From NCBI GenBank assembly GCA_900319225.1, contig ONNV01000006.1, positions 62,001-126,000 of the forward strand: DNA of 64,000 bases. Direction: 5' to 3'. Both the position numbers and the translations under genes were made by a program. This document shows positions 10,753 to 26,271 of this stretch, piece by piece. Numbering within the stretch: the stretch's first letter is position 1; every line of letters starts with the position of its first letter. The DNA comes from an uncultured Prevotellaceae bacterium. Its GTDB lineage: Bacteria > Bacteroidota > Bacteroidia > Bacteroidales > Bacteroidaceae. The notes below the pieces were generated by a model. That model worked only from the letters and a program-made list of their open reading frames with translations. It was not told the origin of the DNA and did no database searches.

Positions 10753-10783
10753 TGTGGAAAAGGGGACAGTCCCCTTTTCCACA
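10753..10783. repeat. REP-like palindrome, family A, copy 1
   Basis: This is a perfect 31-bp palindrome with 15-bp arms (TGTGGAAAAGGGGAC and its complement) around a single central base. It lies 8 nt after the hydrolase stop. Related copies lie at 11038, 30703, 33472, 34224 and 37772. Confidence 0.9.
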
Positions 10784-11037: not shown

Positions 11038-11066
11038 GTGGAAAAGGGGACTGTCCCCTTTTCCAC
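11038..11066. repeat. REP-like palindrome, family A, copy 2
   Basis: Perfect 14-bp arms (GTGGAAAAGGGGAC and complement) flank a central T. Together with copy 1 at 10753 it brackets 254 bp of gene debris. Confidence 0.9.
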
Positions 11067-11113
11067 ACAATTCAACATTGCAAACACTTAGTATTTGCAA
11101 TGGTAACATTTTT

Positions 11114-12037: not shown

Positions 12038-13543
12038 ATGGCGAAGACAAACACAGCTGATGTAGGATTTGAAAAACAGATCTGGAGTGCAGCAGACGTT
12101 TTGAGAGGAAGCATGGATGCGTCTGAGTACAAGCATGTAGTACTTGGATTGATTTTCCTTAAGTACATATCTGACAGATTTGAGCAGAAGTACAATGAGC
12201 TTGTAGCTGAAGGTTACGGCATGGAGGAAGACAAGGACGAATACACTAGTGCAAATATATTCTGGGTTCCACAGGATGCCCGTTGGGAAGTGATTGCAAA
12301 CGCAGCCCACACTCCGGAGGTTGGCATTAAGATTGACAATGCCATGCGTCTGATTGAGAGCGAGAACGTGCGCCTGAAGGGAATCCTGCCTAAGAATTTT
12401 GCACGTCCTGAGCTCAACAAGCAGCGTCTGGGTGATGTGGTGGACCTGTTCACCAATATCAACATGAAGGAGCACGGCGACAGTAAGGATATTCTGGGCC
12501 GTACGTATGAGTACTGTCTGTCAATGTTCGCATCACAGGAAGGCAAGAATGCCGGTGAATTCTATACCCCCTCTTGTATAGTTCGTACTCTGGTTGAAGT
12601 CTTGAAGCCATATCACGGCCGTGTATTTGACCCTGCCTGCGGTTCCGGAGGTATGTTTGTACAGAGCGCCAAGTTTATTGACCGACATCACGGAAGGATA
12701 AACGATATATCTGTGTTTGGCCAGGAGAGCAATCCTACCACTTGGAAGATGGCCCACATGAATCTGGCTATACGCGGAATTGATGCAGATCTGGGCGAAT
12801 CCAACGAGGACTCTTTCCTGCACGACCAGCACCCCACCCTTAAGGCTGATTTTGTTATGGCCAACCCACCGTTCAACATGAGCGACTGGGGCGCAGATAA
12901 GTTGCAGGAAGATGTACGCTGGAAGTATGGAATCCCGCCAGCCGGTAACGCCAACTTTGCCTGGCTGCAGCACATGATACACCACCTTTCACCGGTTGGT
13001 AAGATTGGTATGGTGCTGGCCAACGGTTCACTGTCATCACAGAGTGGCGGTGAAGGTACCATTAGAGAGAACATCCTTAAGGCTGACCTTGTGGAGTGCA
13101 TTGTGGCTCTGCCCAGCCAGCTATTCTACTCTACCGGCATACCGGTATCACTGTGGTTCCTTAACCGAGCTAAGAAGCAGCCCGGTAAGACTCTGTTTAT
13201 TGATGCACGTAACCTTGGAACAATGGTTACACGCCGCCTGCGTGAGCTTACCGAGGATGATATAATGAAGATAGCCGGCACATACGATAAGTATGTGGCT
13301 GGCGAGCTGGAGGATGAAAAGGGATTCTGCGCAGTGGCCACACTTGATGACATTGCCAAGCAGGATTATATCCTTACCCCCGGACGATATGTAGGCATTG
13401 CCGAGACGGAGGATGACGGTGAGCCATTTGAGGAGAAGATGACCAGACTGACCAGCGAGCTGTCAGACCTGTTTAAGCAGTCACACGAGCTGGAGGATGA
13501 GATTCGCAAACAATTAGCATCCATTGGATTTGAACTAAAGTAG
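12038..13543 (+). CDS. hsdM: Type I restriction-modification DNA methyltransferase subunit HsdM
   Basis: The 501-residue N6-adenine methyltransferase is the modification subunit of a type I system. It joins HsdS to methylate host DNA, and HsdS plus HsdR to cut unmodified DNA. The N-terminal helical domain includes LKYISDRFEQKY. S-adenosylmethionine motif I is DPACGSGGMF (about 198-207) and the catalytic motif IV is NPPF (about 276-279). The C-terminal tail (SELSDLFKQSHELEDEIRKQL) is the helix that packs against HsdS. Length is normal. Base composition is host-like, in contrast to the AT-rich hsdS genes downstream. Confidence 0.95.
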   Translation: MAKTNTADVGFEKQIWSAADVLRGSMDASEYKHVVLGLIFLKYISDRFEQKYNELVAEGYGMEEDKDEYTSANIFWVPQDARWEVIANAAHTPEVGIKIDNAMRLIESENVRLKGILPKNFARPELNKQRLGDVVDLFTNINMKEHGDSKDILGRTYEYCLSMFASQEGKNAGEFYTPSCIVRTLVEVLKPYHGRVFDPACGSGGMFVQSAKFIDRHHGRINDISVFGQESNPTTWKMAHMNLAIRGIDADLGESNEDSFLHDQHPTLKADFVMANPPFNMSDWGADKLQEDVRWKYGIPPAGNANFAWLQHMIHHLSPVGKIGMVLANGSLSSQSGGEGTIRENILKADLVECIVALPSQLFYSTGIPVSLWFLNRAKKQPGKTLFIDARNLGTMVTRRLRELTEDDIMKIAGTYDKYVAGELEDEKGFCAVATLDDIAKQDYILTPGRYVGIAETEDDGEPFEEKMTRLTSELSDLFKQSHELEDEIRKQLASIGFELK

Positions 13544-13582
13544 TATTTTGGTCCTCTTTGTTAAACTTAAAACAATGAGGAT

Positions 13583-14575
13583 ATGAAAGAAACTTTTATC
13601 ACCCAGATTACCGAAGCGATGTCCGGAACACTAACAGTAGATCAAATGACCCAGTTGAGCAGCGTCTTACTGCAGACACTGTCCAGCTATACGCTCATTG
13701 CTGATGGAGATAAGGTCCAGGAGGATATTATCTCCAACAACCGCCTACTGGAGATATTCCTGTCAGCAAAGCTTGTAGAGGGATGCTCACAGAAAACCAT
13801 CAAGTATTACGAGACCACCATACGGCAGCTGTTCCGTTACATGCCTAAAGCCGTTAAGGAATATACAACCGATGACCTGAGAGCATATCTGGCTGTATTC
13901 CAGAAAAAGCACAAGTCCAGCAAGGTAACCATAGACAATATACGCAGGATATTCTCATCATTCTTCTCCTGGCTGGAGGATGAGGATTTCATCCTTAAGA
14001 GTCCTGTACGCAGGATCCACAAGGTTAAGACCGGCGAGCAGGTAAAAGAGACCATATCCGATGAGAATATGGAAATACTGCGTGACAACTGCAAGAACAT
14101 ACGTGACCTGGCCATAATAGACCTACTCTCCTCTACCGGTATGCGCGTGGGTGAGCTGGTAAAGCTGAACCGTGCCGATGTAAACTTTCAGGAGCGTGAA
14201 TGCATTGTGTTTGGCAAGGGCAACAAGGAACGCATGGTATATTTCAATGCCAGAGCCAAGATACACCTGCAGCAGTACCTTAAGAGCCGCAAGGATAAGA
14301 ACCAGGCGCTGTTTGTAACGCTTGACAAACCGCACGAGAGACTGCAGATATCCGGTGTTGAGGTACGCTTGCGCCAGCTGGGCCGTAGCCTGAAGGTGCC
14401 ACGCATACACCCGCATAAGTTCCGCCGCACACTTGCCACTATGGCCATAGATAAGGGAATGCCCGTAGAGCAAGTACAGAAGCTCCTGGGACACGTAAAG
14501 ATCGATACAACCATGCGCTATGCCATGGTGAATCAAACCAATGTGAAACTATCACACCGCAAATTCTTGGCCTGA
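13583..14575 (+). CDS. Tyrosine recombinase embedded in the hsd locus
   Basis: The 330-residue XerC/D-like integrase has an N-terminal SAM-like DNA-binding domain (about 50-150, TIKYYETTIRQLFRYM) and a complete catalytic domain. The catalytic residues are Arg in TGMRVGEL (near 187), Lys in GKGNKERMVYF, H-x-x-R in HPHKFRRTL (near 277), His in LLGHVKIDTT and the Tyr nucleophile in MRYAMVN (near 309). Similar enzymes next to Bacteroidales hsdS genes switch specificity modules. Its TGA overlaps the ATG of the next hsdS fragment by one base (TGATG at 14573-14577), so the two are translationally coupled. The sequence is intact with no missing catalytic residue. Confidence 0.9.
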   Translation: MKETFITQITEAMSGTLTVDQMTQLSSVLLQTLSSYTLIADGDKVQEDIISNNRLLEIFLSAKLVEGCSQKTIKYYETTIRQLFRYMPKAVKEYTTDDLRAYLAVFQKKHKSSKVTIDNIRRIFSSFFSWLEDEDFILKSPVRRIHKVKTGEQVKETISDENMEILRDNCKNIRDLAIIDLLSSTGMRVGELVKLNRADVNFQERECIVFGKGNKERMVYFNARAKIHLQQYLKSRKDKNQALFVTLDKPHERLQISGVEVRLRQLGRSLKVPRIHPHKFRRTLATMAIDKGMPVEQVQKLLGHVKIDTTMRYAMVNQTNVKLSHRKFLA

Positions 14576-15309
14576 TGAATACTACATTCAACATATCAAG
14601 GCCTAAGCGGCATGTTTTCTCTGCTAGAAAGAAGCCGAGAAATCATAATTTAGAGGAACAGGCGAAGACTCTTTATAAGTCTTGGTTTGTTGATTTTGAG
14701 CCGTTTAAAGATGGAAAATTCATTGATTCTGAACTCGGATTGATACCTGAGAACTGGGCTGTAGGAACTATATATAATATCTGTGATATATATTATGGAG
14801 CTCCTTTCAACTCTACATTATTCAATTCCGAGAAAAAAGGCTTACCGTTGATTAGAATAAGAGATTTGGCAAAGCAAGAAGCAGGGGTTTACACAGAAGA
14901 GATCCATCCTAAAGGAAGGCTAACTAATAAGGGTGACATTCTTGTCGGAATGGATGGGGAGTTCTCAATATACATATGGGGAGGAATATCTTCCTGGATT
15001 AATCAACGAATTTCTTGTTTTACACCTAAGGAAGGCTATAGCCATTTTTATCTAACTGAAACTTTACGTCCGCAATTGAAAGCAGTTGAATCTTCTGAGG
15101 TAGCTACAACAGTTATCCATATAGGGAAGAACGACTATGATAAGTTCCACTCCATTATCCCGACTCAATTTGTATTAGAAGCGTTTTATAAACTTACAGA
15201 GCCCCTTTACGGGCAATATGTGGATAACTTGATAGCGAATCAAAACTTGACAGCTTTACGCGATTCCTTATTACCCCGATTAATGAGTGGTACATTATCA
15301 ACTAATTAA
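14575..15309 (+). CDS. hsdS: Partial HsdS: carboxy-type specificity module
   Basis: The 244-residue product holds only the second half of a specificity subunit: the central conserved helix (NLEEQAKTLYKSWFVDFEPF, about 24-43), one target recognition domain (about 60-190) and the terminal helix (NLTALRDSLLPRLMSGTL). The first 20 residues (MNTTFNISRPKRHVFSARKK) are unlike any HsdS and simply read into the repeat AAATCATAATTTAGAGGA at 14640-14657. The first recognition domain has therefore been cut away exactly at the repeat. It probably serves as a silent or donor module for recombination with the complete hsdS at 15328. AT-rich. Confidence 0.85.
   Translation: MNTTFNISRPKRHVFSARKKPRNHNLEEQAKTLYKSWFVDFEPFKDGKFIDSELGLIPENWAVGTIYNICDIYYGAPFNSTLFNSEKKGLPLIRIRDLAKQEAGVYTEEIHPKGRLTNKGDILVGMDGEFSIYIWGGISSWINQRISCFTPKEGYSHFYLTETLRPQLKAVESSEVATTVIHIGKNDYDKFHSIIPTQFVLEAFYKLTEPLYGQYVDNLIANQNLTALRDSLLPRLMSGTLSTN
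14640..14657 (+). repeat. hsdS junction repeat, copy 1
   Basis: The sequence AAATCATAATTTAGAGGA is identical at 15846-15863, and its first 12 bases recur at 18223-18234. AAATCATAATTT is an imperfect inverted repeat, as expected for a tyrosine recombinase core. Similarity to copy 2 continues downstream for about 100 bp through the conserved central helix. Confidence 0.8.
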
Positions 15310-15313
15310 TCTG

Positions 15314-15333
15314 TTAAATTCTCATTTATGGAA
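15314..15333 (+). repeat. Module boundary repeat, copy 1
   Basis: TTAAATTCTCATTTATGGAA covers the ATG of the complete hsdS. It is matched at 17696-17714 (TAAATTCTCATTTATGGAA) and, more loosely, at 16561-16580 (TAAATTCTCATATCTATGAA). All three sit at a stop/start junction between cassettes. Confidence 0.7.
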
Positions 15334-16563
15334 GAGTGGAAAAATGATATACTGATTAATCTTCTTGATGCCTTGATAGATTACAGAGGAAAGACCCCGA
15401 AGAAAACGTCTTCTGGTATTCCATTGGTAACAGCCAAGATAATTAAAGGAGGAAGTCTGCTTCCATATGAAGAATATATTGCATATGAGGATTATGATAC
15501 ATGGATGGTAAGAGGACTACCTTTGCCAGGAGATGTAGTAATGACAACAGAAGCACCATTAGGAGAAGTTGCATTATTAGGTTATGACAAAGTAGCACTT
15601 GCTCAAAGAGTTGTTACCCTCAGGGGAAAGAAAGGAGTTCTTTATAATACATTCTTAAAGTATTTTCTACAGTCTGAGATTGGTCAGAAAAGATTATCTG
15701 CAAGAGAAACTGGCACCACTGTTACTGGTATTAAACAATCTGAATTAAGGAAAATCGAAATAACTTACCCTAACTATCAAACCCAATGCCGTATAGGCTC
15801 AATACTAAAATCATTGGACGACAAAATTGCTCTTAACAATCGCATAAATCATAATTTAGAGGAGCAGGCACAGGCTCTGTATAAGTCTTGGTTCGTTGAT
15901 TTTGAGCCTTTTAAGGATGGAAAGTTTATCGACTCAGAGATTGGCGTTATACCAGAGGGTTGGGAGATCAAAACACTTGAACAACTAACATCAAAATTTG
16001 GAACAGGATTAAACCCGAGAAAGAACTTTATATTAGGCCTTGGACAAAACTATTATGTTACCATTAAGAATATGGGTAACAATCGTGTTTATTTGGATGA
16101 CAAATGTGATAAGATAAACAATGAAGCTTTAGAAAAGATTTCAAAACGATCAAAGTTAACAAAAGGAGATTTGCTATTTTCAGGTATTGGTACAATTGGA
16201 AGAGTTGCAGTCGTTGATGAAGAACCCGTTAACTGGAATACCAGTGAATCTGTATTTAATATGCACCCAAGTAAAGAAGTATCTACTGTTTTTTTACGAC
16301 AATTACTACTAAGTGATATTTTTCAGGATTATGTTAATCGAAATGCTCAAGGTGGAGTACAACAAGGCATTCGTATGGCATCACTAAAAGCTTATAAATT
16401 GTCATTACCTAATAAATATGTTATGAGGCAGTTTGATAATGTAATAAATCCTATCATAGACCGAATTAATAACAACAATAAACAAATTGACCAGTTATCA
16501 TCACTGAGAGATTGCCTGCTACCACAACTTATTTCTGGAAAAGCAATAATACTCAACGAATAA
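15328..16563 (+). CDS. hsdS: Type I restriction-modification specificity subunit HsdS (complete)
   Basis: The 411-residue subunit sets the DNA target of the HsdMSR complex. It has two target recognition domains (about 5-165 and 215-380). A central conserved helix separates them (LNNRINHNLEEQAQALYKSW, about 170-189), and a second conserved helix closes the protein (IDQLSSLRDCLLPQLISGKA). It is the only full-length hsdS in the locus and so the one likely to act. The central helix contains the junction repeat at 15846-15863. The gene starts at a TAAATTCTCATTTATGGAA-type boundary motif also seen at 17696. AT-rich, suggesting the recognition domains were acquired by exchange. Confidence 0.92.
   Translation: MEEWKNDILINLLDALIDYRGKTPKKTSSGIPLVTAKIIKGGSLLPYEEYIAYEDYDTWMVRGLPLPGDVVMTTEAPLGEVALLGYDKVALAQRVVTLRGKKGVLYNTFLKYFLQSEIGQKRLSARETGTTVTGIKQSELRKIEITYPNYQTQCRIGSILKSLDDKIALNNRINHNLEEQAQALYKSWFVDFEPFKDGKFIDSEIGVIPEGWEIKTLEQLTSKFGTGLNPRKNFILGLGQNYYVTIKNMGNNRVYLDDKCDKINNEALEKISKRSKLTKGDLLFSGIGTIGRVAVVDEEPVNWNTSESVFNMHPSKEVSTVFLRQLLLSDIFQDYVNRNAQGGVQQGIRMASLKAYKLSLPNKYVMRQFDNVINPIIDRINNNNKQIDQLSSLRDCLLPQLISGKAIILNE
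15846..15863 (+). repeat. hsdS junction repeat, copy 2
   Basis: This copy sits inside the complete hsdS at the central conserved helix. It shares upstream sequence (AACAATCGCAT) with copy 3 at 18223 and downstream sequence (AGAGGA-CAGGC) with copy 1 at 14640, so it is a composite of the two half genes. Confidence 0.85.
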
Positions 16564-16580
16564 ATTCTCATATCTATGAA
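16561..16580 (+). repeat. Module boundary repeat, copy 2 (diverged)
   Basis: TAAATTCTCATATCTATGAA spans the hsdS stop and the yhcG start. It matches the boundary repeat at 15314 and 17696 apart from a 2-nt insertion and one change. Confidence 0.5.
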
Positions 16581-17697
16581 AGATAGCCATATGAAAAAAA
16601 AGATTGAAGAGATGCCATCGTTTGTATATCGTGACAGAATGATTGCAGACAAAGATTATTTAGTTTGGCTGGAAGATGTAAAAACAAGATTCAACCAATG
16701 CCAATTTAAAACATCAGTCCATGTAAACACAGCTATGCTTGAGTTCTACTGGAGTATTGGTCGGGACTTGGTTGCATTGCGTGCCGAAGAACGATGGGGA
16801 ACTGGAGTCGTAAAGCAGTTTGCTCTTGATTTGCATCAGGCATTTCCAGATGCTAAAGGCTTTTCTCTTACGAATGTAAAATACATGAAACAGTGGTATT
16901 CTTTTTATTATGAACACCGAACAAAAAGCCATCAAGTTGGTGGCCAATTGACAAAAACAGAAAAAAGCCACCAAGTTGGTGGCCAATTGGAGATGCCCAA
17001 AGAATTTGGGATAGTACCTTGGAAACATCATGTGTATATCGTTTCCAAGAGCCAAACGTATGAAGAAGCAGTATTCTATATAAACAGAGTTGCAACAGAA
17101 GGATGGAGCCGTGCCTTTTTGGAACATCAAATGTCCTCCAACTTCTTTAAGATACAAGGTTCGGCTATCACAAATTTTGATCAGGCATTACCAGTATCAC
17201 AAAGCAATTGTGCAAAAGAATTACTAAAGAAGGAGTATGATCTGAGTTTCATTACAGCAGATGAGGTAAAGAAGGAAAAAGATCTGGAAAACGCCTTAGC
17301 TAATAATATTACTCAGTTCCTTTTGGAATTAGGCAAAGGGTTCTCTTATGTTGGTCGTCAAATGGAATTACAGACACCCGGAGGCCAAACATTTTTTCCA
17401 GACTTGGTATTCTACCATATACCTCAGCACAGATATGTTGTAATTGAACTGAAAGCTGTTAGGTTTGTTCCTGAATTTGTAGGTAAACTCAACTTCTATG
17501 TAACGGCTGCCGACAAACTACTGCGTGGTGAAGGAGATAATCAATCCGTAGGACTTCTTATTTGCAAGTCTACAGACAAGACAATAGTAGAATGGTCATT
17601 GCAAGATATTCAGAAGCCTTTAGGTATTGCTTCCTATCAGTTACAGGAAGTTGTTGAACGCACCATTGCAGAAATTGAAATGAAATCAAACGTGTAA
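16576..17697 (+). CDS. DUF1016/YhcG-type PD-(D/E)XK nuclease
   Basis: The 373-residue protein matches the YhcG/DUF1016 family. It has an N-terminal helical DUF1016_N region (AMLEFYWSIGRDLVALRAEERWG, then FSLTNVKYMKQWYSFY) and a C-terminal nuclease-like core with PDLVFYHIPQHRYVVIELKA (about 275-294), the D...ExK signature. Proteins of this family are often found inside type I restriction loci, but their function is not established. A 13-residue tandem repeat containing KSHQVGGQL (16923-16950 and 16962-16989 in DNA) lies between the two regions. Only 12 nt separates it from hsdS and 10 nt from the next fragment, so it is in the same operon. An alternative start is Met6 at 16591. Confidence 0.88.
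   Translation: MKDSHMKKKIEEMPSFVYRDRMIADKDYLVWLEDVKTRFNQCQFKTSVHVNTAMLEFYWSIGRDLVALRAEERWGTGVVKQFALDLHQAFPDAKGFSLTNVKYMKQWYSFYYEHRTKSHQVGGQLTKTEKSHQVGGQLEMPKEFGIVPWKHHVYIVSKSQTYEEAVFYINRVATEGWSRAFLEHQMSSNFFKIQGSAITNFDQALPVSQSNCAKELLKKEYDLSFITADEVKKEKDLENALANNITQFLLELGKGFSYVGRQMELQTPGGQTFFPDLVFYHIPQHRYVVIELKAVRFVPEFVGKLNFYVTAADKLLRGEGDNQSVGLLICKSTDKTIVEWSLQDIQKPLGIASYQLQEVVERTIAEIEMKSNV
16923..16989 (+). repeat. 39-bp tandem repeat inside yhcG
   Basis: Two 28-bp near-identical segments (one difference) start 39 bp apart and encode KSHQVGGQL twice, separated by a TKTE linker. The 39-bp period keeps the frame, so copy number could change without breaking the gene. Confidence 0.85.
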
Positions 17698-17714
17698 ATT
17701 CTCATTTATGGAAA
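17696..17714 (+). repeat. Module boundary repeat, copy 3
   Basis: TAAATTCTCATTTATGGAA spans the yhcG stop (TAA) and the start of the hsdS fragment. It is identical over 18 bp to 15316-15333. Confidence 0.8.
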
Positions 17715-18244
17715 AAGTATTACTAGGAACTCTAACTCAAAGAAAGATTGGATATGGTATTGTCCAACCTGGGGATAGTATTCCCAATGGTGTTCCTGTA
17801 ATTAAGGTTAATAATATCATTTCAGGGTTACATGATATTAAAGATTTAGACACTACAAGTAATGAGAATAGTCTTAAATACGTTAGGACCAAACTAGTTG
17901 GTGGAGAATTGCTTGTTAGCGTTGTTGGAACTATTGGAAGAACCGCAATTGTTCCACCATCTTTTGCTGGATGCAATATTGTTAGAGCTGTTGCAATGAT
18001 AGATATACCCAATCCCGAAATGGCACTATGGGTAAAATACTATATTGATTCTCCTAGTGGAATCAATTACATTAAAGAGAATCTAAATACAACAGTACAG
18101 CCAACATTGAATGTAAAATCACTGGTTGAAATGCCAATACCAATGTTTAAACCTGATTATATGCATAATGCAATAAAAACACTTTCAACTATTGATAAAA
18201 AAATCGAATTAAACAATCGCATAAATCATAATTTGGCGGCGTGA
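17708..18244 (+). CDS. hsdS: Partial HsdS: amino-type specificity module
   Basis: The 178-residue product contains one target recognition domain (about 3-155, with VPVIKVNNI and GELLVSVVGTIGRTAIV) and the start of the central helix (KIELNNRINHNL). It then stops at once (AA, TGA at 18242-18244). It ends at the AAATCATAATTT repeat (18223-18234), so it is the mirror fragment of the gene at 14575: a first half without its second half. Joining it to either carboxy-type module at the repeat would give a complete HsdS. It may also act as a half subunit, since some HsdS halves dimerise. Confidence 0.85.
   Translation: MEKVLLGTLTQRKIGYGIVQPGDSIPNGVPVIKVNNIISGLHDIKDLDTTSNENSLKYVRTKLVGGELLVSVVGTIGRTAIVPPSFAGCNIVRAVAMIDIPNPEMALWVKYYIDSPSGINYIKENLNTTVQPTLNVKSLVEMPIPMFKPDYMHNAIKTLSTIDKKIELNNRINHNLAA
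18223..18234 (+). repeat. hsdS junction repeat, copy 3
   Basis: AACAATCGCATAAATCATAA, starting 9 bases before this core, is shared with the complete hsdS. After AAATCATAATTT the sequence changes to GGCGGCGTGA and the frame closes, marking the break point of the half gene. Confidence 0.8.
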
Positions 18245-18297
18245 ACGTTATTTAGAATAAGGACATTAAACTGATAAACAAAGAATTACTATACAAT

Positions 18298-21200
18298 ATG
18301 TTTACTGAGGAAAGCTACGAGAATGCGCTGATTACCCTACTGGAGAATTTGGGGTATGAGCATCTGTATGGTCCGGATATAGAGCGTGACTATAAGGTTC
18401 CGTACTATGATGTGCAGCTGACCCATAGTCTGAGGATGGTGAATCCCACCAAACCTATAGAGGCTATTGAGGAGGCTAAGCGCAAGCTGCGCGACATTGA
18501 TACCGGCCCTCTGACGCAGAAGAATGAGAAATTCATGGAGTATCTGCAGAACGGTGTTGAAGTGTCTTATCTGGAGAAGGGAGATACAATCCACGATATA
18601 GTCTATCTGATAGACTACGAGCATCCGGACCGCAATACGTTCCAGGCTATCAACCAGTGGACCTTTGTAGAGAAATCTGAGAAACGTGCTGATATAATGA
18701 TATTTGTGAACGGTCTGCCATTGGTGCTGATTGAACTTAAATCACCGTCACGCGAGGAAACCGATGCATCAGCTGCTTACCGTCAGATAAGGAACTACAT
18801 TCAGGAGATTCCATCACTTTTCATATACAATGTATTCTGTGTGATGAGTGATATGACGCTCTCCAAAGCCGGTACCATTACCAGCAAGGAGGACCGTTAT
18901 ATGGAGTGGAAATCAAAGGACGGACTGGAGGAAACGAAGGACTTTATTGACTATGATACGTTCTTTGTGGGAATGTTTAAGAGAGACAGGTTCCTGGATT
19001 TGGTTAAGAACTTTACCTGTTTCAGTATTGATGAAGCTGGCTCAGCCAAGATACTGGCCGGATACCATCAGTACTTTGCCGTTAAGAAAGCCATTGACAG
19101 GACTGTAAGAGCAACCAACAGCGATGGTAAGATTGGCGTATTCTGGCACACTCAGGGAAGCGGCAAATCGCTGTCAATGGTGTTCTATGCGCATCTTATC
19201 CAGACAGTTCTAAATAAGCCCACAATCGTAGTGATTACTGACCGTAACGATCTGGATGACCAGCTTTACGGCCAGTTCTCAAAGTGTGAGAGATTCCTGC
19301 GCCAGAAGCCAGTACAGGCCGCAAGCCGTGAGAACCTGAGAGAGCTGCTGATGGGCCGCGAAGCAAACGGCATTATATTTACAACGATGCAGAAGTTTGA
19401 GGAGTCTGACGGCCCGCTGTCAGAGCGCCGTAACATTGTGGTGATGACCGATGAGGCCCACCGCGGACAGTATGGCTTTGAGGAGAAGGTGAATGCTCAG
19501 GGAAAGATAAGTGTGGGCTTGGCCAGAATCATTCATGACTCCCTACCCAATGCTTCTTTTATAGGATTTACCGGTACACCGATATCACAGAAAGACCGCG
19601 ATACCCAGGAGGTGTTTGGTGACTACATAGATATATATGACATGACTCAGGCTGTGAAGGACGGTGCCACTTGTCCGGTATTCTATGAGTCACGTGTAGT
19701 AAACCTGAAGCTGGATGAGGCAACAATCAAGCAGATTGATGCCGAATATGAGAAACTGGCTGAAGAAGGTGCTACCGGCCAGCAGATTGAAGAGAGCATG
19801 CATGAGATGTCACACCTGGAGGAGATTCTGGGTGCTCCGGAAACTATTGACTCGCTAGTGCGTGACATACTGAAGCACTACGAAGAGAACCGCCAGTATG
19901 AGCTTACCGGTAAGGCAATGATAGTGGCATTCTCCCGCCCCATTGCAATACGCATCTACAAACGCATTCTTGAGCTCCGTCCGGATTGGACTGAGAAGGT
20001 TAAGGTTGTTGTTACAGGCTCAAACAACGATCCTGAAGAGTGGCACGATATTATAGGCAACAAGCAATACAAGAAAGAGCTGGCAAAGAAATTCAAGGAT
20101 GATAAGGATCCTATGAAGATTGCCATTGTGGTGGATATGTGGCTTACAGGATTTGATGTGCCATCATTGGCCACCATGTATGTGTATAAGCCTATGTCCG
20201 GACATAACCTGATGCAGGCTATTGCACGTGTAAACCGTGTATTCTCAGGTAAGGCAGGCGGCCTGGTGGTTGACTATATAGGAATAGCCAAGGCCCTGAA
20301 GGAGGCTATGCGTGATTATACCAAGCAAGACCAGGAGAACTACGGTAACACCAATATCAAGGATACCGCACTGGTTAAGTTCAAGGAGAAGATTGAGGTT
20401 TGCAGTGACCTGTTCCATGGATTCAGCTACGCTAAGTTCCGCACCGGAACGGATGCTGACCGTGCCGAAATCATTAAGGGTGCTGTAAACCATATGCTGG
20501 CACCGGCTATGGAAGAGAAATGCGAGTCATTCCTGAAAGAGGCCCTACTCCTTAAGAACGCCGTTAGCCTATGCCGTAGTTTGCTGAATGAGGAACAGCG
20601 TTATGAATCTGCTTTCTTTGAGACCGTAAGGACATCGATAGGCAGACTCAAGAACATAAAGACTAAGGTATCAAAGAAGGAGATTAACGAGCGCATTGGT
20701 GAATTGCTTAAGCAGAGCATCAAGAGCGAGGGCGTGATAAACCTATTCTCGGACATCAAGGAGGAGTTCTCACTGTTTGATCCTGCATTCCTGGATGAAA
20801 TTTCCAAGATGAAGGAAAAACACATTGCTATTGAACTGTTGAAACGTTTGCTCAAGGAGCGTGTACACTTGTATGAGAGGACCAACCTGGTACAGGCACA
20901 GAAGTTCTCTGACTTGATCAATATGGCGCTCTCCAACTACCTGAAGGGATTGCTTACCAATGAGGAGGTTATCAAGGAACTGCTTGAGCTCGCTCAGGAG
21001 ATTGCCAAGAGTGAGAAGGTGGCCGACAGCCTGGGCCTGAATGCGGAAGAGAAGGCATTCTACGACGCACTTACACGCCCTCAGGCAGTAAAGGACTTCT
21101 ACACCAATGAGCAGCTGGTTAGCCTGACCAAGGAACTTACCGAGGAGTTACGCAAGAACCGCACCATAGACTGGCAGAAAAAAGAGTCTGCCCGCGCCGG

Positions 21201-21429
21201 CATGCGCTCCAAGGTTAAGCGCCTGCTTAAGAAATACAAGTATCCACCAGAAGAGGAACAGTCTGCGCTGGAGACCGTAATACACCAGTGCGAGCAGTGG
21301 GCTGACGTAAATCCGGACGAGTATAATGATTACGAAAACGGAGGTGCTGAGGTGAAGGAGTATAACATGGAGCCGGTTTATCATATGGCGGCTGAACCTG
21401 AGAAAGTAAAAATTGATAATAAAGATTGA
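18298..21429 (+). CDS. hsdR: Type I restriction endonuclease subunit HsdR
   Basis: The 1043-residue motor and nuclease subunit translocates and cuts unmethylated DNA. The N-terminal nuclease domain has the RADIMIFVNGLPLVLIELKS segment (D...ExK, Glu and Lys near 146-148). The superfamily 2 helicase has Walker A in HTQGSGKSLS (about 283-292), the DEAH box in MTDEAHRGQYG (about 385-388), motif III FTGTP, and the late motifs GFDVPSLATMYVYKP and QAIARVNRVF. A long helical C-terminal domain (DUF3387-like, from about 690) contacts HsdM/HsdS. The ATG follows a 53-nt gap without a clear promoter. GC content is host-like, as for hsdM. Confidence 0.95.
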   Translation: MFTEESYENALITLLENLGYEHLYGPDIERDYKVPYYDVQLTHSLRMVNPTKPIEAIEEAKRKLRDIDTGPLTQKNEKFMEYLQNGVEVSYLEKGDTIHDIVYLIDYEHPDRNTFQAINQWTFVEKSEKRADIMIFVNGLPLVLIELKSPSREETDASAAYRQIRNYIQEIPSLFIYNVFCVMSDMTLSKAGTITSKEDRYMEWKSKDGLEETKDFIDYDTFFVGMFKRDRFLDLVKNFTCFSIDEAGSAKILAGYHQYFAVKKAIDRTVRATNSDGKIGVFWHTQGSGKSLSMVFYAHLIQTVLNKPTIVVITDRNDLDDQLYGQFSKCERFLRQKPVQAASRENLRELLMGREANGIIFTTMQKFEESDGPLSERRNIVVMTDEAHRGQYGFEEKVNAQGKISVGLARIIHDSLPNASFIGFTGTPISQKDRDTQEVFGDYIDIYDMTQAVKDGATCPVFYESRVVNLKLDEATIKQIDAEYEKLAEEGATGQQIEESMHEMSHLEEILGAPETIDSLVRDILKHYEENRQYELTGKAMIVAFSRPIAIRIYKRILELRPDWTEKVKVVVTGSNNDPEEWHDIIGNKQYKKELAKKFKDDKDPMKIAIVVDMWLTGFDVPSLATMYVYKPMSGHNLMQAIARVNRVFSGKAGGLVVDYIGIAKALKEAMRDYTKQDQENYGNTNIKDTALVKFKEKIEVCSDLFHGFSYAKFRTGTDADRAEIIKGAVNHMLAPAMEEKCESFLKEALLLKNAVSLCRSLLNEEQRYESAFFETVRTSIGRLKNIKTKVSKKEINERIGELLKQSIKSEGVINLFSDIKEEFSLFDPAFLDEISKMKEKHIAIELLKRLLKERVHLYERTNLVQAQKFSDLINMALSNYLKGLLTNEEVIKELLELAQEIAKSEKVADSLGLNAEEKAFYDALTRPQAVKDFYTNEQLVSLTKELTEELRKNRTIDWQKKESARAGMRSKVKRLLKKYKYPPEEEQSALETVIHQCEQWADVNPDEYNDYENGGAEVKEYNMEPVYHMAAEPEKVKIDNKD

Positions 21430-21660: not shown

Positions 21661-23550
21661 ATGACAACCATACTATCCTATTCAACCACCTTGACATATT
21701 TATTTCTAGCATTTATTGTCTTTGTATTCATACGCTTTTTGATACCACTTAGAAAAATCACAGCACCTAAGAAACTTATCATCAAATCACTTAAAAGTGA
21801 TGATATTCTTGGAGCATTCAATAAAACAAAACTTGAAGAGCTAGGTAATTTATATAAACGTGACATTACAACAATAACGCAAACCGAAAAAAAGACGAAC
21901 ACACCTGCGTCTTATTATTTTAATACTGAAAACATCACAAATGTCTATAACCTTAATCTAATTAAGCTTGACTCAGCTTCCAGCACATTGGTCGGATTAG
22001 GTTTATTGGGAACATTCTTAGGATTAACCTTAGGCATTATAGGATTTGACAGTTCAGATTCAAGCAACATACAACAAAGTATACAAAACCTCCTTGCAGG
22101 TATGGGTACAGCATTCTCTACATCTTTATTAGGAATGCTCTGTTCACTCATCTTTACAGCTATCTATAAAGCTAAAAGAGATAAGCTACACAAATGTTTA
22201 AATAGCTTCACTGAAAAACTTGATACCATTTATTTTATTGATGATAATGAGTTACAAGATTTAAACCAGTCGGCCCTAATTGACAGAATGATAAAGGCTG
22301 TACAGACTGAGTTGAACTCAAAACTATCATACAACAACGATGAAGGCGAAAATGTACCTATTGGAAATGCCGTAAGGGAGATTCTAAAAGAAAGCTATGA
22401 GCAATCTAAAGCGCTCAAATCATTCTCCACAGACCTTGCCATGGAGCTAAACAACGGTTTTGATGAAGTTTTGTCACGACAAATGCAGGCAAAGATATTA
22501 CCTCTTATGGAAAGCGTTGATGCTACTACAAAGGCTGTTATAGAACATATTGACCAGATGGCATCTACCGTATCATCACCAGCATCAAGTATGATGCAAA
22601 ATGTTGTTGATGAGTTGAAAAAGAGTATGGTTACAATTATTGAGGAGTTTAGGTCCAATATTTCTGGCTCTGCTACATCACAAATGGAAGCGCTAGCCAT
22701 GCAACTTGGTGCCGCTTCACAATCTATTGGCGAATTCCCAAGAAATATGGAACTCATCTCTAATACACTTCAAAATACGATTGAAGATGTAAGAACTGCC
22801 ATTACCGATATTAGTAACAATACGGCTAATGCTAATTCTGCAACGATGCAGCAGATGCAGGAACAAAGCAATCAGATGGTTGATAAACTTGCCGAGGCAA
22901 CGGATAAGATGGGTACATTCCTTAATAGCACTATTACCAATCTCTCTACATCTGTCCAGGATTCAATGAAATCTATCACTGAAGATGTTAGCAACAAACA
23001 GGCTGATTTAATAGCCCTTCAAGAAGGTACGACATCTCAAACCAAAAAACTACTCGAATCATTTAATGATGGGTTGGCACGCTTAGAAAAGATGAGTGAT
23101 TACATTATTGATGTGATGAACGGATTTAAACAAGCTCAAGGTGAGATTACACTTAGTACCGGTAACCTGAGAACCATCAGCAACGATATGAGGAATGCTA
23201 CAGAAACCTTCAATAAGGGCCAGCTTGAATACGCCGAAAGAATTAATCAGCTACAAATATCCAGTCAGAGAGGCATTGAGAAAGTTGAAGAGTTGTTGGT
23301 TAACTCCGGTCAAATGTCAGAAGAATATGCTCAAAAGTTTGATGTCATAAAACAGGGATTGACAAGCATATTCAGCCAGTTACAGAATGGTTTGGCAGAA
23401 TATAGTCGAACTGTACAGGCTACAACGCAAAAGTATCTTGATCAATATACTACCAATCTGACTCAAACGACAGATGCATTGTCTAGCACCATTCAGCAGC
23501 AGAATGATGTGGTTGAAATGCTTAATGAGATTCTAACACATAAGAGATAA
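21661..23550 (+). CDS. zorA: ZorA: MotA/ExbB-like stator subunit of Zorya
   Basis: The 629-residue inner-membrane protein is the ring subunit of the ZorAB proton-driven motor, which in known Zorya systems senses phage entry at the envelope. There is one N-terminal membrane helix (about 8-27). A MotA/ExbB-type pair follows: LVGLGLLGTFLGLTLGIIGF (about 109-128) and AFSTSLLGMLCSLIFTAIY (about 149-167). After residue 170 comes a very long, Gln/Asn/Ser-rich helical tail, the hallmark that separates ZorA from MotA or ExbB. The TAA stop overlaps the zorB ATG by one base, so the pair is coupled. AT-rich and distinct from the host genes. Confidence 0.93.
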   Translation: MTTILSYSTTLTYLFLAFIVFVFIRFLIPLRKITAPKKLIIKSLKSDDILGAFNKTKLEELGNLYKRDITTITQTEKKTNTPASYYFNTENITNVYNLNLIKLDSASSTLVGLGLLGTFLGLTLGIIGFDSSDSSNIQQSIQNLLAGMGTAFSTSLLGMLCSLIFTAIYKAKRDKLHKCLNSFTEKLDTIYFIDDNELQDLNQSALIDRMIKAVQTELNSKLSYNNDEGENVPIGNAVREILKESYEQSKALKSFSTDLAMELNNGFDEVLSRQMQAKILPLMESVDATTKAVIEHIDQMASTVSSPASSMMQNVVDELKKSMVTIIEEFRSNISGSATSQMEALAMQLGAASQSIGEFPRNMELISNTLQNTIEDVRTAITDISNNTANANSATMQQMQEQSNQMVDKLAEATDKMGTFLNSTITNLSTSVQDSMKSITEDVSNKQADLIALQEGTTSQTKKLLESFNDGLARLEKMSDYIIDVMNGFKQAQGEITLSTGNLRTISNDMRNATETFNKGQLEYAERINQLQISSQRGIEKVEELLVNSGQMSEEYAQKFDVIKQGLTSIFSQLQNGLAEYSRTVQATTQKYLDQYTTNLTQTTDALSSTIQQQNDVVEMLNEILTHKR

Positions 23551-24245
23551 TGAAGAAAAACAAGACTGTAAACCATGGCGATGAGGAAAATGTTTTTTCT
23601 CTATCGACTGGAGACCTGATGGCAGGCTTGCTGTTCATCTTTATACTTCTTTTGATGGGTGCGCTACTCCAAGTCCAGGAGAAAGCAGAACAAGATGAGG
23701 AGATAGTAAAGCGTTATGACGAAATCAAAACCCAGCTTTACATAGATTTGCAGGAGGAATTTAAAGAAGATCTTGTCGTGTGGAGGGCTATCATTGATTC
23801 CACGCTCTGCATTCGATTCCAGGAACCTTCGATGTTGTTTGATGAAGGAAAGGATGTTTTAAAACCCAAATTTCAAGAAATACTTGACGACTTCTTCCCG
23901 AGATATATTGCGGTACTAAATAGGCCCCAATATAGGGACAATATTGAAGAAATACGAATAGAAGGTCACACCAATAGCAATGGTGGTTACTATTCAAACA
24001 TGGAACTATCGCAAGATAGAACTCGTTCTGTACTACAGTATTGTTTTAGCTTAATGACAGACGAGGATGTTATGTGGCTTAAAGGACTTGTAACGGCAAA
24101 TGGATTATCATCAAGCCATCCAATACTCACTGGCGGTGGAGAAGAAGATAAAGAATTGTCTCGCCGTGTAGAATTCAGAGTAAGGACTAATGCAGAAAAG
24201 CAGTTGGAAGAGATTGCCGAAAAAAGATTTAATAGTAGAAAATGA
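23550..24245 (+). CDS. zorB: ZorB: MotB/OmpA-like stator subunit of Zorya
   Basis: The 231-residue protein has a short cytosolic tail, one membrane helix (about 23-41) beginning SLSTGDLMAGLLFIFI, and a periplasmic OmpA-like peptidoglycan-binding domain (about 130-220). Asp22 corresponds to the proton-binding Asp of MotB and ZorB. The OmpA-like domain is marked by IRIEGHTNSNGGYYSN...LSQDRTRSV and RRVEFRVRT. It forms the plug and anchor of the ZorAB motor. Its TGA overlaps the zorC ATG (ATGA, 24242-24245). The key Asp and the peptidoglycan-binding Arg and Asp are present, so the motor looks functional. Confidence 0.93.
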   Translation: MKKNKTVNHGDEENVFSLSTGDLMAGLLFIFILLLMGALLQVQEKAEQDEEIVKRYDEIKTQLYIDLQEEFKEDLVVWRAIIDSTLCIRFQEPSMLFDEGKDVLKPKFQEILDDFFPRYIAVLNRPQYRDNIEEIRIEGHTNSNGGYYSNMELSQDRTRSVLQYCFSLMTDEDVMWLKGLVTANGLSSSHPILTGGGEEDKELSRRVEFRVRTNAEKQLEEIAEKRFNSRK

Positions 24246-26263
24246 TGGATGCCTTCAATCTTCTCGGTTTAGACCGCAGCTTTCTGAGAGAGTTTCCAAT
24301 ACTGGCTAACCGTATTGATGATTCTCAGACAGAGAGGATTGTACGTCAAAACATAAAGAAGCTCGAAGAGATCGAAACACGTTCTCTAGCAAATGAGAAC
24401 CTAAACATACCTAAGTACTCTGTAGATGAAGTCCTTTATAAAATATCTATGTCTGCCAGACAAAATGACACCGAAATTGACAAATGGACCACTCGAGATT
24501 TACGCATTCTTTCCTACTATATAATGAGATTTCAGGATGACGACAATGCATACAAATACGCATTAACACTCCTGGATCTAAAATGGAAAAATCTATACTT
24601 CAACGGGTTAGTGTTTTATGTCCTGAATTCATGGAACATGATTAAACCTGATTTAAGAAAAAGCACATGCCAATTGATAATTAACAAGCTACGTGGTTAT
24701 AATGATGCAAACCGAAAATTCTTGCTGTATAAAAATCATGCAAACTATTTCGAGGAAGCAGGTCCAACACGCATGGCAACCCTTCTTTCCAGCAAACAGC
24801 AAGATGTAAAGGAAGCCCCATTGATATTAGGAAACAAGAAAATATCTATTGCCCAATCATATTATTCTGACGTTATTGTCAAATATGTTGAAAAAAATGA
24901 TGTTAGCCTTGATTATCTGGCAGAGTTATTTGAAAAACACAACTTAAATCGAACTAAGAAATTAGTTTTTGCAAATCTGGTCGAACAGGCAGACAGTGAT
25001 GGAGATACCTATAAACAAACCCAACTGAGCAACTTTATCAACAGGACCCTAGGGGATGTTACACTTCCTGCCACGTGGGCTCCATTCCCTGGTGCTACAG
25101 AAGATGAAGCGCAAAGACTAAAGCACGCCATGCAACTTGTTAAACAGTGGTTTACAAGAAGGGTCATTGAGACATTCTTTGAAGTGTGCGTACAAGATAG
25201 AGATAGAAAAAACTTTTGGCTAAAATATGTACCGCATATTAGTGGTTTTAAAATCGTTGGCTCAAGTTTGACAAAATACTCACTACAAAGTGACCCTAGA
25301 ACTGGTAATATTTTTGCAAAGCATTTTATCGAGACCAATTCAAAATATTCTGTAACAGCGGCACTTGTGTTGTCTATCAGGAATAAAGTATTTGTGGAAT
25401 TTTCCGATACCGGAGCTCTTTACGTCTATAATCAAGATAACGGTTATATTAGATTTTTGAAGACTGGAGTTAGGTACATAAATTCCACCAATGACCTCAA
25501 AAACACAAGTATGATTACGTTAATAGAAAACAATGACTATTACATTCGCCACCACCATGAAGGCAGAATGACACATCAAGGCTATTGGCAGAGCCGTTTA
25601 AATAGTTGGTTCAGGAATATTGTATTTAAAAATGATAACATACCTTATACCCCATTCTTTGAATCACCTGATGAATCCATTTTCAAAGCTCAAGAACTCC
25701 CTAAGCAAGAACCTATTAAAAGACCCGATAGACGAAGTGGAAACGAAGATGTACTTAACTACTATAAAAACGCAACTATAAAGCCAGCTATAGCTTCTAA
25801 ACCTGTTAATAGTTCAGCTATACAGTCTACAAATGCAGACATATCTACATATAAAAAATACACTCAGACTGCATTATTTAAAAATCTTGAATCAAAAGAA
25901 TCTACTTCTACACAACCTGCTACTCAGTACAGACAAAAACAAGCTAAATATGAAACTAATGTAAAATATGTAATCGCCAGCAGATGGGAGTTTAATAATG
26001 CATGCAGAATTGTCTGCAACATCAACGGTTATTACATTTATATCATTAATGGTCAACGCTACTATTTTCTCCAAAGCTTAATTGGTAAAGCACAACCAAT
26101 GGGCAGTCTCTGGATAAAAAAGCCTAACAAAGAAGGATGGACTGAAATAATCCATTATGTATTAGGTCAAGAACTATCAGTTGGCTATGTGAAGAAAGAA
26201 AATGGCAAACTAATCTATATGGAAGATTTAGACCTAGATGATCAATTAGTCCTTGAATTGTAA
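24242..26263 (+). CDS. zorC: ZorC: EH-signature protein of type I Zorya
   Basis: The 673-residue cytosolic protein follows zorB in the order expected for type I Zorya. In known systems ZorC binds DNA and works with ZorD. A helical N-terminal half is followed by the EH-signature region: FTRRVIETFFEVC (Glu near 311), NFWLKYVPHISGF, VEFSDTGALYVYN and HHHEGRMTHQGYWQSRL (His near 446). After residue 470 there is a Pro/Ser/Thr/Lys-rich linker (about 480-570) and an extra beta-rich domain of about 100 residues (about 575-673, with RWEFNNACRIVCNINGYYIY). That last part is not something I associate with ordinary ZorC. The second Met (24245) is an alternative start. Confidence 0.88.
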   Translation: MMDAFNLLGLDRSFLREFPILANRIDDSQTERIVRQNIKKLEEIETRSLANENLNIPKYSVDEVLYKISMSARQNDTEIDKWTTRDLRILSYYIMRFQDDDNAYKYALTLLDLKWKNLYFNGLVFYVLNSWNMIKPDLRKSTCQLIINKLRGYNDANRKFLLYKNHANYFEEAGPTRMATLLSSKQQDVKEAPLILGNKKISIAQSYYSDVIVKYVEKNDVSLDYLAELFEKHNLNRTKKLVFANLVEQADSDGDTYKQTQLSNFINRTLGDVTLPATWAPFPGATEDEAQRLKHAMQLVKQWFTRRVIETFFEVCVQDRDRKNFWLKYVPHISGFKIVGSSLTKYSLQSDPRTGNIFAKHFIETNSKYSVTAALVLSIRNKVFVEFSDTGALYVYNQDNGYIRFLKTGVRYINSTNDLKNTSMITLIENNDYYIRHHHEGRMTHQGYWQSRLNSWFRNIVFKNDNIPYTPFFESPDESIFKAQELPKQEPIKRPDRRSGNEDVLNYYKNATIKPAIASKPVNSSAIQSTNADISTYKKYTQTALFKNLESKESTSTQPATQYRQKQAKYETNVKYVIASRWEFNNACRIVCNINGYYIYIINGQRYYFLQSLIGKAQPMGSLWIKKPNKEGWTEIIHYVLGQELSVGYVKKENGKLIYMEDLDLDDQLVLEL

Positions 26264-26271
26264 TAGACATT

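Follow-up and report, generated by a model that had tools for sequence, protein, structure and literature searches.

The window examined here is a 64,000-nucleotide stretch of DNA from an uncultured Prevotellaceae bacterium (assembly GCA_900319225.1, contig ONNV01000006.1, positions 62,001 to 126,000 of the forward strand), and its element of interest is a type I restriction-modification locus in which pieces of the specificity gene hsdS are arrayed between hsdM and hsdR. With hsdM, hsdS and hsdR together, the type I gene set is complete, as judged by Pfam domains and PADLOC. The array is made of two units, C1-N2 and C2-YhcG-N3 (N and C being amino and carboxy halves of hsdS), which are delimited by short sites of two classes, here called MID and END. 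Outside the units lie the recombinase gene and a 65-bp stub on the left and hsdR on the right. The features, in window coordinates, are as follows.

12038..13543, +: hsdM, type I DNA methyltransferase subunit (N6_Mtase and HsdM_N; PADLOC MTase_I)
13583..14575, +: XerA-type tyrosine recombinase, upstream of the array and outside it (Phage_integrase and SAM-like domains)
14575..14639, +: recombinase-side left flank (the stub), 65 bp before the first site; its start codon overlaps the recombinase stop
14575..15309, +: hsdS carboxy half C1, open reading frame of 244 amino acids including the stub start (Methylase_S)
14640..14651, +: MID site 1, AAAT-CATA-ATTT, an exact match to AAATCATAATTT
15315..15328, +: END site 1, TAAAT-TCTC-ATTTA, its last base being the first base of the hsdS start codon
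15328..16563, +: complete hsdS, N2-C2, 411 amino acids (Methylase_S; PADLOC Specificity_I)
15846..15857, +: MID site 2, at the N2/C2 joint (TAAAT-CATA-ATTTA at 15845-15858)
16561..16574, +: decayed copy resembling END, TAAATTCTCATATC, which overlaps the stop of hsdS
16576..17697, +: cargo gene, DUF1016/YhcG PDDEXK nuclease, 373 amino acids (YhcG_C and DUF1016_N; PADLOC PDC-S02)
17695..17708, +: END site 2, TAAAT-TCTC-ATTTA, spanning the YhcG stop and reaching the first base of the N3 start codon
17708..18244, +: hsdS amino half N3, 178 amino acids (Methylase_S at the cut-off, 22.1 against 22 bits)
18223..18234, +: MID site 3, the last in the array; the DNA to its right is the hsdR-side flank
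18298..21429, +: hsdR, type I restriction subunit (HSDR_N, SWI2_SNF2 and T1RH-like_C; PADLOC REase_I)

A preliminary description of this stretch had proposed that one complete and two half hsdS genes meet at an identical site, that all modules face the same way and that an intact recombinase gene is coupled to the first fragment. All of this holds: the site is present in three exact copies, every gene and site is on the + strand, and the fragment's start codon overlaps the recombinase stop. The recombinase is not embedded in the array, as that description had it, since the gene ends at 14575, upstream of the first site at 14640; it thus lies outside the part that could be excised. The YhcG nuclease gene, which sits between the complete hsdS and the 5′ half, had gone unmentioned, as had the END sites. 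The recombinase itself matches NCBIfam model NF040815 (XerA-type) with 240.5 bits against a cut-off of 220, and its frame is open and contains the motifs TGMR, GKGNK, HKFR, LLGH and TMRY, which we take to hold the catalytic residues.

Two site classes with common arms and different spacers

The 12-mer AAATCATAATTT occurs exactly three times in the window (14640, 15846 and 18223), always on the + strand and each time at an hsdS half joint; the chance expectation is 0.03 copies, and none of 100 shuffles contained three. The count is likewise three for the entire 2.53-Mb assembly, whose completeness is about 85%, with every copy in the array, and a search of that assembly for orphan cassettes by way of this MID core found none elsewhere. 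A second direct repeat, TAAATTCTCATTTA, precedes both amino halves (15315 and 17695) and has a decayed third copy at 16561. MID and END have equal arms, TAAAT and ATTTA, and differ in the 4-bp spacer between them (MID, CATA; END, TCTC). The general pattern TAAATN4ATTTA is present at 4 places in the assembly, 3 of them within the array, compared with 1 place for a backward control pattern; the first and last MID are each short of one outer arm base and are therefore not among these places. When the stub, N2 and N3 are joined at MID to C1, C2 and the hsdR flank, all nine joins are in frame and free of internal stops. Hinge copies 1 and 2 of the window are 77% alike over 137 bp.

A direct-repeat lineage in the Bacteroidota

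Relatives were collected from one genome per species, with the best 80 of 438 loci returned; all were found through the recombinase, so arrays without one are invisible to the search. In the window, L006-L059 and L061, hsdM is followed by the recombinase, then the hsdS pieces and then hsdR, wherever these parts are on the contig, and the hsdS pieces present in 43 of these 56 loci never include one on the opposite strand. A maximum-likelihood tree was built for 86 recombinases; 57 of its rows, the window's among them, form one clade (support 100/100). Labelled by us as direct or inverted from their layouts, these comprise 35 direct arrays (some incomplete), 8 arrays starting with END, 2 empty loci, 11 truncated loci and 1 virome contig. 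There is no inverted locus among the 46 rows that can be judged, the 11 truncated rows being uninformative on this point; all 18 inverted-labelled loci fall in the remaining 29 rows, along with 11 others. Several loci among L046-L056 form a sub-lineage, mostly from rumen Prevotella-like bacteria, in which the first site after the recombinase (where seen) is an END, followed by complete hsdS genes.

The spacer is constant within a locus. Each of the 33 loci that have two or more hinge sites with exact arms uses one spacer throughout, and five spacers occur among them (GATA in 18, CATA in 10, GGCA in 2, GACA in 2 and CGCA in 1). A looser definition of the arms gave uniformity in 25 of 37 loci and brought in matches away from the hinge; exact arms were adopted. 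The 33 loci contain 98 forward MID sites, and no reverse MID with the locus's own spacer was found in 55 loci. For END, the count in 54 loci is 79 forward and 0 reverse.

A family-wide search found the recombinase at E <= 1e-100 in 35 of 399 genomes. Sixteen of the 34 regions fetched were duplicates of earlier loci by recombinase sequence. Two of the 18 new ones are 75-76% identical and have alternating direct MID and END sites, and the other 16 are 58-65% identical: three of these have inverted pairs of known spacers, six have a forward site on either side of the recombinase and seven are unclear or lack a site with a known spacer. One of the six, L192 (genome G031), is in the window's own genus; its layout, different from the window's, is closer to the pneumococcal tvr locus discussed below. 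In L165 (375-3514) the homology to hsdM is split in two by a gap of about 1.6 kb, as an insertion would do. Scans of IMG/VR gave 5 stretches with the MID pattern and 17 recombinase loci, one of which (L110) has the same layout; no circle was noticed in the IMG/VR loci, which says little given that they are excerpts of longer contigs. Among the 20 truncated loci that were examined, 14 end no more than 130 bp downstream of a site; this clustering is not counted as evidence of activity, since repeats by themselves can make an assembly break.

Unit arrangements among relatives that agree with predicted products

A difference in unit order is seen between Phocaeicola faecium (L036) and Bacteroides sp. 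ET71 (L042), which carry the two units in opposite order between flanks that are 93.7% and 89.2% identical. L036 13595-15964 corresponds to L042 11060-13425 at 99.6%, and L036 11060-13067 corresponds to L042 13413-15420 at 99.1%; both blocks begin at a core.

Two loci appear to have lost their units. In Prevotella micans (L033) a single MID lies between the stub and the hsdR side, and its homology to L034 stops 1 bp past the first MID and restarts 11 bp before the last. Prevotella ihumii (L038) likewise has a single MID between stub and hsdR. Both are nested in the array-bearing clade, which makes loss likelier than an original empty state. No cassette was found elsewhere in either genome (G037, G038) by the MID pattern with at most one mismatch. 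The first and last sites of an array have only 12-19 exact bp in common (14 loci checked), a length too short for ordinary homologous recombination.

A third set of loci, on near-isogenic contigs, points to an exchange of amino halves. L043 has the order C0, YhcG, END, N1-C1, END, N2, hsdR. In L086, whose recombinase protein is identical to that of L043, the order is C0, YhcG, END, N2, MID, after which C0 starts over for 124 bp, and this join of N2-MID to C0 may, from its sequence, be a circle or tandem junction, the only one of its kind seen among the loci. L127 reads C1, END, N1, MID, hsdR; compared with L043 it is 99.97% identical over 3,359 bp on the hsdR side, 100% in N1 and 97.8% in C1. 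Taken together, the three orders suggest that N1 and N2 have swapped places, at END and MID. L086 (MT839915) and L127 (MT836838) are unverified scaffolds from one series of faecal virome records, and an enrichment of small circles during virome preparation would explain L086. Both records are titled "Bacteriophage sp." yet are bacterial restriction-modification contigs. The contig of L043 is binned as Clostridia but its locus is of the Bacteroidota lineage, probably a binning error. A search of the phage collection for more near-isogenic contigs, with four other arrays as query, returned short or partial matches only.

More broadly, arrays have 53 blocks in common (at least 350 bp, at least 80% identity): 18 belong to the hsdR flank, 15 are found in the same unit and 20 in different ones. 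Some shared blocks have one end at a core, for example in L026/L028, L011/L014, L012/L016 and L032/L034. Within the window's genus, L006 has an identical recombinase and flanking DNA that is 92-95% identical but different target recognition domains (TRDs); between the first and last site its alignment to the window is limited to the YhcG gene, the hinges and an END stretch.

A model of excision and reintegration

Excision and reintegration of units composed of a carboxy half, cargo and an amino half, mainly by the adjoining recombinase, is the best reading of this locus and one we hold to be probable. It builds on the site anatomy, its uniqueness in the assembly, the reading frames, the conservation and the arrangements of relatives that match predicted products. 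In this model, the XerA-type recombinase would recombine directly repeated sites with the arms TAAAT and ATTTA: MID (CATA), inside each hsdS at the half joint, and END (TCTC), where each amino half begins. A crossover between two MID sites would excise a circle carrying a carboxy half, cargo and an amino half, and reintegration of the circle at a different MID would create a new amino/carboxy pairing and so change the DNA target. END sites would additionally allow amino halves and whole hsdS genes to be swapped. The form expressed in the window would be N2-C2, with N3-C1, N3-C2 and N2-C1 within reach, and loss of the circle would leave no complete hsdS on the chromosome, so that the system would be off.

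The preliminary description had named excision and reinsertion via direct repeats, which the direct sites and the relatives' arrangements make the best-supported mechanism, and had foreseen up to four TRD pairings from the MID-type site. Four are indeed reachable, but not in that way. When excision and subsequent reintegration are enumerated symbolically, MID alone gives two full-content arrangements (N2C2 and N3C1), END alone gives one and both classes together give four (N2C2, N3C2, N2C1 and N3C1), so the END class is needed. If active, the locus would let gut and rumen bacteria switch reversibly among as many as four DNA targets and an off state, which would affect phage defence, gene flow and the methylome. 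Having two spacers also yields testable predictions about which junctions form and which never do, and a swap of spacers should reroute the exchange.

A number of observations weigh against this model. The second block common to L036 and L042 has a different amino half, and four of the 60 bp immediately right of its core are mismatched, so the pair is no pure permutation and more than one event must have separated them. On the right side of L038 the alignment to L034 does not begin until 15024, about 650 bp beyond the last MID, so this locus is not an exact product. L086 is without 131 bp at a likely scaffold join, and the left 1.45 kb of L127 comes from elsewhere; with C1 at only 97.8%, chimerism is possible. 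Most comparisons are between species, and some exchanges may therefore reflect horizontal transfer and homologous recombination; in some loci the flanks of MID have up to 60 exact bp in common. In tvr, according to the portions of the published accounts available to us, part of the rearrangement persists without the recombinase. Catalysis by the window's recombinase, activity in this organism and an effect on methylation are points that we infer from sequence.

A wider version of the model can be put forward only tentatively. The fixed recombinase and first site might act as an integron-like platform that captures and releases circles of half-specificity genes with defence- or toxin-type cargo, within a cell and between species, the two orthogonal spacer classes making every pairing reachable. 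If that were true, recent circle transfers would account for the unit blocks of L036 and L042, which exceed 99% identity where their flanks are at 89-94%.

Alternative explanations

The alternative that survives best, though we think it unlikely, is that RecA-type homologous recombination and horizontal exchange shuffle the halves, the hinge being a coding constraint and a mere stretch of homology. TRD exchange by homologous recombination is known for other type I systems. Homology is present at the inner joints, in the likeness of the window's first two hinge copies and in the 56-60 exact bp that the first and second sites have in common in some loci, and 15 of the 35 in-array blocks stay in their own unit. 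The outer sites tell otherwise, as they match over just the 12-19 bp given above, yet the empty L033 is joined there. END, for its part, is intergenic and is kept as TAAAT-TCTC(or TCCC)-ATTTA. The uniform spacer in 33 of 33 loci also speaks against this reading, although gene conversion could do likewise, and the intact recombinase that adjoins every array does so by construction in a recombinase-based search.

It is somewhat less likely again that the array is a static relic, with half genes left by old duplications and a recombinase that no longer acts on them. The third END copy (16561) has decayed, and the empty L033 shows that arrays can be lost; the recombinase, however, is open with intact motifs, three cores are exact and all combinations are in frame, and L006, with its identical recombinase and closely similar flanks, carries other TRDs. 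A classic inverting shufflon, of the SpnIII/ivr kind or as in the other part of the recombinase family, is very improbable, for although relatives at about 59-66% identity have inverted site pairs, the sites and hsdS pieces of this lineage are all direct (0 inverted MID in 55 loci, 0 inverted END in 54, 0 opposite-strand hsdS pieces in 43), and inversion was rejected on orientation.

Cargo and neighbouring genes

The commonest genes other than hsdS within the 35 complete arrays, assigned by similarity to Pfam-checked representatives, are Fic/DOC genes (12 loci) and YhcG nucleases (6 loci). A strict Fic/DOC count is 11, because the Fic-like gene of L054, where the sites have imperfect arms, was placed inside by default. 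Past the last site, and so outside the excisable part, 15 of the 35 complete loci have an Abi_C-like gene (Pfam check in L036). The window's YhcG gene contains a 28-nt repeat in two copies (16923-16989) whose starts are 39 nt apart, which keeps it in frame.

Directly downstream of hsdR are Zorya-like defence genes (21661-29025): a ZorA-like gene (MotA/ExbB), a ZorB-like gene (OmpA; PADLOC ZorB2, 252 bits), a gene for an EH_Signature protein with weak likeness to ZorC, and a 917-amino-acid frame that by eye resembles an SNF2 helicase. The restriction locus and these genes may be part of a defence island. A 30-nt near-palindrome, GTGGAAAAGGGGACAGTCCCCTTTTCCAC, occurs in two copies (10753-10782 and 11038-11067) with a spacing of 255 nt.

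Comparison with known systems

Excision and reintegration are established for the SpnIV tvr locus of Streptococcus pneumoniae, for which the sections of Kwun 2018 (PMC6265443) available to us report circles, dependence on the repeats and on TvrR, and two repeat classes with a common core; the locus is also described in the accessible part of Croucher 2014 (PMC4263131). The preliminary description, in contrasting the window with pneumococcus as a user of inversion, was therefore incomplete, since a direct-repeat system was already established in that species. The window's locus and tvr are both type I loci with segments between hsdM and hsdR, with N- and C-type TRD segments, a tyrosine recombinase, all repeats in one orientation and two core-sharing repeat classes (MID and END in the window), and the products seen in the window's lineage are those expected from excision and reintegration of circles. 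The Doc-like gene of tvr, TvrT, lies in the circle and restrains the recombinase gene, as far as the consulted portions of PMC6265443 and PMC4263131 go; Fic/Doc-family genes are in the excisable part of several relatives of the window.

The differences concern what moves and where. In tvr the recombinase and a toxin-antitoxin pair are inside the circle, whereas the window's recombinase is upstream of the first site and would stay behind; no Phd-Doc-like pair stands beside it, and the cargo is YhcG. In the parts of the tvr accounts available, the TRD segment beside hsdM does not move, and the repeats are about 18 bp and about 70 bp with a core of about 11 bp, in contrast to the window's short palindromes, whose arms are equal and whose 4-bp spacers differ. 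With its recombinase outside the array and its short palindromes with two spacers, the window's locus is a variant of excision-reintegration and not a tvr locus.

Sites with the same arms are known from SsuCC20p of S. suis, where the available part of the report describes XerD-dependent TRD shuffling at TAAATCATCATTTA (PMC10790761). The sites of a Lactococcus relative on a plasmid (L090) carry the 12-bp core of TAAATCATCATTTA, and its recombinase is 63% identical to the window's. Both of these differ from the window in having inverted site pairs and a recombinase between the hsdS pieces, on the SsuCC20p side as far as that part shows. SpnIII (ivr/cod) with PsrA/CreX and the inverted hsdS loci catalogued from REBASE resemble the window in recombinase-assisted change of HsdS halves and differ in using inverted repeats and inversion, going by the portion of PMC7394358 consulted.

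That survey of duplicated hsdS genes, in the same portion, sought inverted repeats, and a direct-repeat lineage would have been missed by it. Searches of an open-access collection turned up no account of direct hsdS arrays in the Bacteroidota. Phase-variable type I systems are on record for Prevotella intermedia and Porphyromonas gingivalis (Haigh 2017, PMC5690328), the layout not being described in the part available, so part of the direct-array finding may be known to specialists.

There is also an analogy, and only that, with integrons, in which a fixed recombinase heads an array of units that are excised as circles. Membership was rejected: the integrase model TIGR02249 scores 65 bits against a cut-off of 265 while NF040815 passes, so by model score the window's recombinase is no IntI, and the unit boundary falls inside a gene. 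The principle is known from SpnIV tvr; what is new is the placement of the recombinase outside the array, the two spacer classes and the occurrence of such arrays as a lineage in the Bacteroidota.

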